This document shows, piece after piece, positions 7,634 to 11,122 of a DNA stretch of 64,000 bases. The stretch comes from Halobaculum gomorrense (GTDB lineage: Archaea; Halobacteriota; Halobacteria; Halobacteriales; Haloferacaceae), in contig NZ_FQWV01000002.1 in NCBI RefSeq assembly GCF_900129775.1, forward strand, positions 124,001 to 188,000. Direction: 5' to 3'. The position numbers were made by a program, and so were the translations under genes. Under the pieces are notes generated by a model, which did no database searches, had not been told where the DNA came from, and saw only the letters and a program-made list of their open reading frames with translations. The first letter of the stretch is position 1. Each line of letters starts with the position of its first letter.

Positions 7634-8173
7634 ATGTTCCCGATAGAACACTTCCTCGTCGCTTTCCTCCCCGTCCTGATGTATGTCCTCGTAATCGACA
7701 GACGTCTCCCGACTGTTCGTCTCGTGGCCGTTGCGTTCATCGGGAGTCAGTTTCCCGACCTGGTCGACAAACCCCTTGCGTATCAGTTCGGCCTGATTCC
7801 GTCCGGACGCGTCTTCATGCACTCATTACCGATCGCGCTGCCGTTCTTGATTGGTACTGTCATCTACGGGTGGCAGACGGAGCGAAATCGCCTGAGTGTG
7901 GGTTTTGCCTTCGCGTACGTGTCTCATCTTGTGGCCGACAACTACGGCCCACTGTTCGGGCCGCACCCACGGATTCGACCGGATCTTCTGTGGCCGTTTG
8001 CCGATCCGGTCTCGCGACCCGACGTTCCATCGTGGGCCGGCGTTGGCGGGATACATATAAGACTCTGGACAGGGTTCTCACTTCTCGTCTTGTTGGTAAC
8101 TGGAACACTAGTTCTCGCCGACCTGTGGCGAAGACTCCGGGGAAACCCACACGTATCCGAGACAGGCGACTGA
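7634..8173 (+). CDS. Membrane-bound metal-dependent hydrolase (YdjM/DUF457-like)
   Basis: A 179-residue membrane protein with four to five helices and the conserved polar residues of the YdjM family: His6 (IEHFLVAF), QFPDLVDKPLAY with two aspartates, FMHSLP, and SHLVADNYGPLF. Those His/Asp residues are thought to bind metal within the membrane. The function in archaea is unknown; these genes often accompany polysaccharide or lipid-envelope genes, as here. A 132-base gap separates it from the upstream gene, so it may have its own promoter. Confidence 0.8.
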   Translation: MFPIEHFLVAFLPVLMYVLVIDRRLPTVRLVAVAFIGSQFPDLVDKPLAYQFGLIPSGRVFMHSLPIALPFLIGTVIYGWQTERNRLSVGFAFAYVSHLVADNYGPLFGPHPRIRPDLLWPFADPVSRPDVPSWAGVGGIHIRLWTGFSLLVLLVTGTLVLADLWRRLRGNPHVSETGD

Positions 8174-8294
8174 TCGGCAGACAACTCGATTTCGCCGATC
8201 GTGTCCATGCGGCAGTCCGGTAGGACTGTACTCCGCTTTGCTACCACCCAGGTAACCTGCGGGTAACACTACGCGGTCTCCTGTATCGTACCGC

Positions 8295-9524
8295 GTGGCT
8301 GTGACACTTCTAACGTATCATTCACTCATAGTGGTGGTCTTGGACGCCGTCGTTTCGATCGTTTTGTGGGTTGTGACCAGCTTCTATATCGCCGGTAACA
8401 TGTACTGGGTCTATCAGTTGTTGGCCGGGGTTGTAACGTACACCTCCCCGGCGCCATTGCACGGCGGATACGCGGTTGAAGTCCGGATTGTGACAATCGG
8501 CAACGAGTCGGCTGTCACCGAGACGGTTCGCAACCTTCCGCCCGAGTTGGACCGTCGATATGTTATTTCCGAGGAGCCAATTGAGGTTCCGGGAGCGGAA
8601 GTGCTGGTTGTTCCCGACGAGTTTGAGTCCAAGGCTGTAAATAAGGGAAGAGCATTAGAGTGGGCACGTCAAGCGGTGCCGTGTCAGCGCGAATACGTCC
8701 TGTACCTGGATGAGGATAGCCATATGGACGGGTTTAGTGGCCTCCCTGACAGCGACATCGTACAGTTCACCGAACAGCCACGGCGGACGACGAGCCTCCT
8801 TGCCCACCTCTGTGAGATAAACCGTATGGGGTTCCAGATCGAACAGCGAGGATTCCAGTCGGCCACTGTCCCACTTTACACGTGGGGTGGTGGCGTGGCC
8901 ATTCGCAGTTCCATCGAGGATGCGGTGACGTGGGACTATTCCACGCTGATCGAGGATACGGTGTTCACGTGGCGGGCGTTCGTCGAACTACCTGAGCAGC
9001 CGTCGTTCAGTGTGTTGTCCGAAACGATATCGGGTCAGTCTCCCCCGAGCCTTTTTGATATGATACGCCAGCGCCGTCGGTGGATCAGTGGGAGCCGAGA
9101 GAACAATACGATCCTCTCGCTTGATCGGGTCATTATGTACGGACTACGCGATCTGTCGTGGTCGGTTACGGCAGCCGTCCCGCTGTTTTTGTTCTTAGGA
9201 AATCTCCCTGGCGTAGACGTGTTCGCGTGGCAGATACATCAGGGGATTTCAGTCGTGTTGCTCTCGTTCGTGTTTGTCTGGGTTGGTATCGGTATCTGGC
9301 AGGTGCGTCCGACGCCTGCTATTGCGGGCCTCAGCCTTGTACTGGCGCCTGTTACGAGTGTTCTCCACTCGGTTGGCGCGTTGTGGGGACTCGTCTCGCC
9401 TCCCGACTCGTTCGACGTGACCACGAAGGCTGACGAGGTGACCAATCAGCCACCGCAGCACTACCGCACAACCACGGACGAACACCCACCACGACATCAT
9501 TACAGGGACGCGAACGATGACTAA
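8295..9524 (+). CDS. Membrane glycosyltransferase family 2 (processive synthase type)
   Basis: A 409-residue GT2 protein with the D,D,D,QxxRW signature of processive synthases such as cellulose, mannan and hyaluronan synthases. LYLDEDSHMD (139-141) is the metal/UDP or GDP site, TLIEDTVFTW (220-221) the catalytic acidic pair, and RQRRRW (259-263) the QxxRW motif. Membrane helices flank the domain (residues ~8-45, ~275-300, ~310-375). The start is a GTG; GTG at 8331 is an alternative. The 3' end overlaps the glycanase gene by eight bases. By family it should polymerise and extrude a beta-linked glycan. Base composition is less GC-rich than the core genes. Confidence 0.88.
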   Translation: MAVTLLTYHSLIVVVLDAVVSIVLWVVTSFYIAGNMYWVYQLLAGVVTYTSPAPLHGGYAVEVRIVTIGNESAVTETVRNLPPELDRRYVISEEPIEVPGAEVLVVPDEFESKAVNKGRALEWARQAVPCQREYVLYLDEDSHMDGFSGLPDSDIVQFTEQPRRTTSLLAHLCEINRMGFQIEQRGFQSATVPLYTWGGGVAIRSSIEDAVTWDYSTLIEDTVFTWRAFVELPEQPSFSVLSETISGQSPPSLFDMIRQRRRWISGSRENNTILSLDRVIMYGLRDLSWSVTAAVPLFLFLGNLPGVDVFAWQIHQGISVVLLSFVFVWVGIGIWQVRPTPAIAGLSLVLAPVTSVLHSVGALWGLVSPPDSFDVTTKADEVTNQPPQHYRTTTDEHPPRHHYRDANDD

Positions 9525-10500
9525 ACGCGTCGGCCAGTCGGATCATAGTGACGTGTTACTCGGCGTATTTCCCGGCGAATCGGAGCGTCTTCGGACGATT
9601 CGCGCCTTTCAGGCGTGGCTCAGCCGTCCACTTGATGTTGTGACGACGTTCATCAGGACCGACGTCCCGGCGTCGTATCGACGGGAGTTCGTCACGCGGT
9701 ATCTCTCAGCCATCGTTGATGCGGGACTCGTACCACTCCTCACGTGGGAGCCTTTCGGTTTCGAGATCAGTTCGGACGCGTCTCCTGTTCGATCGATCAA
9801 CGAAGGCCGCGTGGACGACGAGATACATCAGTGGGCGGAGTTGCTACGAAGGTGGCTCTCCGAGTCGTCCGACCGTACAGTGATCTTTCGGCCCGCTCAC
9901 GAGATGAACGGTACGTGGTATCCGTGGAGTGCCGGTCACGGCACCACCCCCGAGGAGTATACCCGAATGTGGCGTCGCCTCTTCGAGGCGTTTGCGGACG
10001 CCGGTGTGCCGAGAGAGCGGGTTGATTGGATGTGGTGTATCAACGTCACCGACGGAACGTGTGTACCCCCGTTCGAGTATTTCCCGGGCGAGCAGTACGT
10101 CGACTGGATCGGGGTCGACGGGTACAATTTCGGTGACAGCCAGCCGTGGAGCTCGTGGCAATCACCGGAAGCAGTGTTCGAGCAGACGTTAGCGGCGGTG
10201 AATGCCGAGACGAACCTGCCACTCGCGATCCCAGAGACCGGATGCTCGTCAGCCTACAATAGCAAGCGCCGGCCGCTCCGAAAGTCACAGTGGCTTGTCG
10301 ACGCGTTCGAACTGTTCAACGAGTACGGAGTGGAACTGGTCGGGTGGTTCAATATGTCGAAAGAGACGGACTGGACGGTACTCGAACCGGTTTCATCGGA
10401 CACGGCAACAATCCGCAAACAAATAGAATTGAACGGTCGACAGTACGATTGTTACCCACGATTTAACCAGGTCTCTGCGCGCATCTGTGGCAAGGACTGA
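9517..10500 (+). CDS. Glycoside hydrolase family 26-like beta-glycanase
   Basis: A 327-residue (beta/alpha)8 hydrolase resembling GH26 beta-mannanases. The acid/base glutamate lies in IFRPAHEMNGTWYPWS (Glu129) and the nucleophile in LAIPETGCSS (Glu240). DWIGVDGYNFGDS is the usual strand-6 region. No signal peptide, Tat motif or anchor is visible, so the enzyme should stay inside the cell or act where the growing chain leaves the synthase. The eight-base overlap with the GT2 gene argues for coupled translation. Partner hydrolases of this kind are known in synthase-dependent exopolysaccharide systems (for example BcsZ with cellulose synthase). A beta-mannan-like product is inferred. Confidence 0.87.
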   Translation: MTKRVGQSDHSDVLLGVFPGESERLRTIRAFQAWLSRPLDVVTTFIRTDVPASYRREFVTRYLSAIVDAGLVPLLTWEPFGFEISSDASPVRSINEGRVDDEIHQWAELLRRWLSESSDRTVIFRPAHEMNGTWYPWSAGHGTTPEEYTRMWRRLFEAFADAGVPRERVDWMWCINVTDGTCVPPFEYFPGEQYVDWIGVDGYNFGDSQPWSSWQSPEAVFEQTLAAVNAETNLPLAIPETGCSSAYNSKRRPLRKSQWLVDAFELFNEYGVELVGWFNMSKETDWTVLEPVSSDTATIRKQIELNGRQYDCYPRFNQVSARICGKD

Positions 10501-10682: not shown

Positions 10683-10902
10683 ACCGTCCACAACCTCGGA
10701 GGATGGCTTTGATGTGTGCCTTCTGTTCATATGGAGGACCTGTGAAACAGGAGCTGTCTTGCGGTTCCGTAATTTTATCACTCAGAAAACTTTTCTGAGC
10801 GACATACTCCGCGACTGCAGCCTAATCGCCGGACGAAAGACTATCCATCCACAGACCACGTGAAAATAAGGCACGCATCAAAATCCAAACTCCGAAACTC
10901 TG
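10683..10902. repeat. 220-bp tandem repeat, copy 1
   Basis: First of two head-to-tail 220-base units in a gene-free, AT-richer stretch between two convergent genes. It begins ACCGTCCACAACCTCGGAGG and ends CTCCGAAACTCTG. It contains a perfect palindrome, CTCAGAAAA-C-TTTTCTGAG (10781-10799), which would form a nine-pair stem. The stretch 10501-10682 before it shows no gene, only a small inverted repeat (TTGAGA/TCTCAA, about 10647-10665). Confidence 0.9.
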
Positions 10903-11122
10903 ACCGTCCACAACCTCGGAGGATGGTTTTGATGTGTGCCTTCTATTCGTGCAAAAATACTGTGAAAATAGAGCTTTCATGCGGTTCTCATTTTATATCA
11001 GCAAGAAAACTTTTCTGAGTGGTATATTCTGTGACTGTCTACTAATCGCCAGACACAAGCCCGCCCATCCGCAGAAAGCGTAAAAATAAGCCACGCATCA
11101 GATCCCATCCTCCGAAACTCTG
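10903..11122. repeat. 220-bp tandem repeat, copy 2
   Basis: Second unit, exactly 220 bases after the first and without net insertions or deletions; roughly four-fifths identical by eye. The first 24 bases differ at one position and the last dozen are identical. TCGGAGGATGG at its left end and CCATCCTCCGA near its right end form an 11-base inverted repeat, while copy 1 has lost the right arm. The central palindrome is only partly kept (GCAAGAAAACTTTTCTGAG). On the minus strand both copies keep an 18-codon frame (11042-11098, and 10822-10878 in copy 1), but substitutions are not biased to silent sites. It ends eight bases before the stop of the next gene. Confidence 0.9.

Follow-up and report, generated by a model that had tools for sequence, protein, structure and literature searches.

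A membrane GT2 glycosyltransferase gene overlapping the gene of a leaderless GH26 hydrolase in Halobaculum gomorrense, and related pairs in haloarchaea

Within a 64,000-nucleotide stretch of the Halobaculum gomorrense genome (contig NZ_FQWV01000002.1, positions 124,001 to 188,000; hereafter the window), a membrane GT2 glycosyltransferase and a GH26 hydrolase that carries no export leader are encoded by overlapping genes (Table 1), and linked pairs of the two families recur in other haloarchaea with shared evolutionary distances. The eight-base overlap had been noticed in an earlier sequence-only reading of this DNA and was borne out by the ORF coordinates. The preferred explanation, with a probability of roughly 0.5, is a GT2 producing a glycan of beta-linked hexose and a GH26 that trims or clears this product, in the window organism on the cytosolic side of the membrane; we infer product, substrate, and location alike.

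Table 1. Features of the overlapping GT2 and GH26 genes (window coordinates)
Feature	Coordinates	Strand	Details
Membrane GT2 glycosyltransferase	8295..9524	+	GTG start, 409 aa, PF13632
GT2 DxD motif	8709..8720	+	DEDS, residues 139-142
GT2 QxxRW motif	9069..9083	+	QRRRW, residues 259-263
Overlap of GT2 3' end and GH26 5' end	9517..9524	+	8 bases
Leaderless GH26 hydrolase	9517..10500	+	ATG start, 327 aa, PF02156, nearest CtLic26A lichenase
GH26 E129, putative acid/base	9901..9903	+	RPAHEMN, aligns with CtLic26A E109
GH26 E240, putative nucleophile	10234..10236	+	IPETG, aligns with CtLic26A E222

The two enzymes and their nearest relatives

The GT2 protein matched PF13632 at 6.4e-10 (39.6 bits; curated cut-off 27), and this profile, the GT-A fold of its model, the DxD motif, and the QxxRW motif together place it in the GT2 family. 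It further contains K117, WGGG (197-200), and ED (220-221), which, along with DED (139-141), Q259, R260, and W263, were invariant among 28 relatives. Hydropathy indicated one N-terminal and approximately three C-terminal membrane segments, and the structural model (pLDDT 88), a minimal cellulose-synthase-like fold, placed one transmembrane helix at the N terminus followed by helices at 276-301, 312-337, and 341-367, which are fewer predicted transmembrane helices than in known processive synthases. Fold comparison of the model returned Z-scores of 22.6 for hyaluronan synthase, 22.1 for BcsA, and 20.0 for PcManGT, a GT2 of Pyrobaculum calidifontis (6yv7), the two synthases scoring somewhat above PcManGT and across more residues; the highest target-normalised TM-score was that of PcManGT (0.57-0.58). 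Hyaluronan synthase (8snc) and BcsA (9b8v, 4p00) share with the window GT2 the GT-A core, QxxRW, and C-terminal membrane helices, but identity is 10-14% and the window protein has no PilZ match. PcManGT shares the minimal cellulose-synthase-like fold and a similar length, but is 12% identical. We know of no polymer product and no GH26 partner of PcManGT. The enzyme was titled an N-glycan mannosyltransferase, and experimental confirmation of that function failed (PMC8993221). Since the model matches both the synthases and PcManGT and the membrane segments are few, the GT2 is a candidate processive synthase at most; the processive-synthase motifs noticed in the sequence-only reading are present, but QxxRW is no proof of processivity and the model resembles PcManGT as well.

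The partner protein matched PF02156 far above the curated cut-off (3.9e-15, 56.4 bits versus 20.2), and its model (pLDDT 88) adopts a barrel fold with a Z-score of 33.4 over 269 residues to CtLic26A (Endoglucanase H of Clostridium thermocellum; 2bvd, 2cip), at 29% identity. E129 and E240 both align with glutamates of CtLic26A and were invariant among 24 relatives, such that the family membership and the intact catalytic pair proposed beforehand were upheld. CtLic26A belongs to a degrader of plant polysaccharide; unlike it, the window GH26 has no leader and is encoded next to a GT2. The proposal of a beta-mannan-like product fared worse. In phmmer, CtLic26A scored 3e-31 as compared to 8e-9 for the best mannanase, and the fold Z-score of 33 to CtLic26A exceeded those to mannanases (22-25); mannanases are not the closest relatives of known activity. 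Beta-mannan was dropped as the default GH26 substrate because CtLic26A, the closest relative with a solved structure, is a lichenase. A published GH26 phylogeny likewise sets lichenases apart from two mannanase branches (PMC6556568). Judged by sequence and model, the description “GH26-like” can be sharpened to an enzyme nearest the lichenase CtLic26A, with hydrolytic activity predicted.

Linkage of the pair and location of the hydrolase

Linkage, defined as a distance within 2 kb, was surveyed in a sample of 293 genomes of the window's order. GH26 was found in 34 genomes, GT2 in 92, and both within 2 kb in 19; a linked GT2 is thus present in 19 of the 34 GH26-positive genomes and absent from 15. 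The linked pairs span at least five families (f1, f5, f12, f14, and f17) and occur in three relative orientations (tandem, divergent, and convergent), so that the expected conservation of the pair in other genomes was found. On the GT2 tree, the link was gained or lost at least five times. Pairwise GT2 and GH26 distances correlated with r = 0.97 for 18 pairs and 0.91 for 11 dereplicated pairs (permutation p = 2e-4), a correlation that can arise from genes travelling together without an enzymatic link. Linkage counts, trees, and distances describe a hydrolase with conserved linkage to a synthase-like GT2, as expected of a synthase-associated hydrolase. Among the 19 linked loci compared, no other gene beside the pair was common to loci outside close relatives, and no transporter recurred. 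Approximately 73 of the 92 GT2-positive genomes have no linked GH26, indicating that the hydrolase is not obligatory. Neighbors of GH26-free GT2 genes were read by eye, and some of them profiled, for another hydrolase in place of GH26; none resembled a glycoside hydrolase. Across 247 sampled genomes of the phylum, GT2 matches were restricted to the window's own order. At loci L055-L059, the GH26-free GT2 holds a conserved position by a gene resembling methylthioadenosine phosphorylase, joined in L057-L059 by a gene resembling ScpA, both recognized by eye only.

No export signal could be read in the frame of the window GH26, in agreement with the sequence-only reading. Upstream of the ATG at 9517, the frame remains open for 25 codons, which are polar and contain neither a start codon nor a hydrophobic segment; a leader was therefore not missed through the choice of start, and a missed start codon with leader is excluded. 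Having no leader, the window GH26 is most likely a cytosolic enzyme acting at the inner membrane face. Among the 19 paired GH26 enzymes, 13 have a Tat-type N terminus with a lipobox (nine Halococcus-genus loci, G014, G040, G133, and G099) and six are leaderless (the window, G072, G108, G183, G260, and G123); an exported or anchored hydrolase of the BcsZ/CcsZ type is accordingly encoded in 13 paired loci and not in the window or the other five. Eight of the nine Halococcus-genus loci also encode a second, leaderless GH26 convergently beside the Tat-lipoprotein GH26. Leaderless GH26 domains contain a mean of 4.4 cysteines as compared to 1.0 in leadered domains (p = 5e-5, a value that ignores shared ancestry), and about three changes on the tree suffice to explain the leaderless enzymes. 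The higher cysteine content is an independent hint of a reducing compartment, the cytosol.

Bacterial parallels were drawn from the best 80 loci obtained when a genome collection was scanned with the GH26 alignment, and counts describe that selection rather than bacteria overall. As a test of neighbors, the haloarchaeal GT2 profile was too narrow and returned few, whereas CesA-like seeds returned many. Of the 70 bacterial GH26 frames with a leader in this selection, 26 have a GT2 no more than 1.5 kb away. In three MAGs (L117 and L136, labeled Thermodesulfobacteriota on the tree, and L141, placed in Myxococcota), a leaderless, cysteine-rich GH26 directly follows or overlaps a CesA-like GT2; the gene row of L141 (2831-7559) comprises a BcsS-like gene, a CesA-like GT2 with a SPOR domain, the leaderless GH26, and a PEP-CTERM protein. 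These three GH26 enzymes form their own clade, and a 100/100 branch divides it from the haloarchaeal enzymes; the leaderless arrangement beside CesA-like GT2 genes therefore most likely arose independently in bacteria. An inward-facing GH26 had been considered unusual in an archaeon. A leaderless, probably cytosolic enzyme is indeed unusual next to the exported hydrolases associated with synthases, but it is neither the archaeal rule, given 13 Tat lipoproteins among 19, nor exclusive to archaea, given the three bacterial MAGs. A natural GT2-GH26 fusion in one frame of 946 aa was identified with Pfam in Ca. Blackburnbacteria (L140:8186-11023), and L116 resembles it, with the GH26 part detected by the local profile only. 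A different joining was seen in Halococcus morrhuae (L086:3094-7047), where a 1318 aa protein combines subtilase and GH26 domains; similarly long frames are present in other Halococcus-genus genomes.

Readings of the pair and known systems

Under the preferred reading, the GT2 and GH26 would make up a compact unit of synthase and hydrolase. The GT2, whose active site is expected to lie on the inner side of the membrane, would build or extend a beta-linked, hexose-rich glycan, probably with beta-1,4 bonds, and the GH26 would be a dedicated endo-hydrolase of this product. The window GH26 may cut mis-primed, prematurely released, or untranslocated chains at the inner face or, alternatively, determine how long an intermediate becomes in the cytosol or on a lipid; in related lineages the partner would be placed outside as a Tat lipoprotein, or be present in both forms. 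A tentative generalization, held with rather less than even confidence, is that cytosolic GH26 enzymes of a recurrent class, in haloarchaea and some bacteria, act at the inner face of membrane GT2s and edit or clear glycan prior to or in the course of export, the opposite of the usual outside partner. To our knowledge, hydrolases that partner polysaccharide synthases are usually described as working on the outer side of the membrane.

The main rival is a GT2 that resembles PcManGT in being a non-processive, short-chain transferase. It would extend a lipid-linked oligosaccharide by one or a few sugars on the cytosolic side of the membrane, with the GH26 trimming or recycling lipid-linked or released oligosaccharides and no exopolysaccharide being made. 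The top TM-score of PcManGT and the short transmembrane region that it shares with the window GT2 are consistent with such an enzyme, as is the majority of GT2 genomes without a linked hydrolase, and a cytosolic partner would be sensible while the glycan is still inside. The higher Z-scores to hyaluronan synthase and BcsA over more residues argue in the other direction, as do the near or full invariance of QxxRW among GT2 relatives and the bacterial GH26 relatives beside CesA-like GT2 genes, once with BcsS, and we regard this rival as somewhat unlikely.

That the GH26 is instead a cytosolic salvage enzyme digesting beta-gluco- or manno-oligosaccharides taken up by the cell, with its GT2 neighborhood reflecting joint transfer of glycan genes, would account for the missing leader and for a GC3 of the pair (0.66-0.69) below the 0.87-0.96 of downstream genes, consistent with acquisition. 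This appears improbable, as the linkage persists across orientations and neighborhoods in which nothing else is conserved, no transporter or other gene recurs beside the pair, and the enzyme in most linked loci is an exported lipoprotein. Export by a leader-independent route, with the GH26 acting outside as an ordinary BcsZ-like release enzyme, draws on the exported GH26 of sister lineages and on the signal/anchor of the synthase-associated hydrolase CcsZ (PMC7710045). The upstream frame without a hydrophobic segment and a cysteine content differing from that of exported relatives make such a route very improbable.

Hydrolase genes inside synthase units, with a proposed role in trimming or release, are represented by BcsZ (GH8) and CcsZ (GH5) (PMC7710045). 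The window resembles these systems in pairing a hydrolase gene with a synthase-like gene, but the glycoside hydrolase families differ, and the N-terminal signal/anchor of CcsZ has no counterpart in the window GH26. WpsE is a GH26 of the Actinoplanes missouriensis wps-1 cluster, discussed as Wzx/Wzy-type, and no Wzx/Wzy-dependent cluster with GH26 had been characterized before (PMC13390465); like the window, this polysaccharide cluster holds both GH26 and GT2 genes, but not as an overlapping two-gene unit. In the literature searched, with subscription papers mostly outside its reach, we found no haloarchaeal GH26/GT2 pairs, no archaeal egghead-like enzymes, and no inward-facing GH26 partner of a synthase. 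Hydrolase-synthase pairs (BcsZ, CcsZ) and a GH26 in an actinomycete cluster are known, and the inward-facing GH26 partner is apparently new. A partner that is internal in certain lineages and external in others provides a natural comparison for the role of the hydrolase, and specific genes, among them a Halococcus locus encoding both forms, can now be named for haloarchaeal glycans of largely obscure synthesis.

Surroundings of the pair in the window

The nearest relative of the window's pair is that of Halobacterium sp. TGN-42-S1, not the pair of the same-genus genome G260; the window GT2 is also near that of G234. Neither GT2 nor GH26 had a match in three genomes of the same genus. The YdjM-like, GT2, and GH26 genes (window 7634-10500) have a GC content of 57-58% and a GC3 of 0.65-0.69, as compared to 0.87-0.96 in downstream genes. 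A nearest pair outside the genus, the absence of the pair from three same-genus genomes, and the lower GC suggest that the pair was acquired. The GT4, phosphatase/sulfatase-like, and polytopic genes upstream had been assigned tentatively to the same pathway, an assignment that was rejected, as none of the four upstream genes was found again in pair loci. The upstream polytopic gene occurs in 4 of 117 genomes, and the sulfatase-like family in 92 of 117, which is too common to be informative; in G108, the polytopic gene adjoins a sulfatase-like gene on contig C5, and the GT2-GH26 pair is on C1. Directly 3' of the GH26 gene, two tandem MITE-like copies (window 10683-11122) of an element of approximately 215-220 bp, whose inverted ends are imperfect, were observed, and the genome's other contigs hold about 10 more copies, several of them 98-100% identical.
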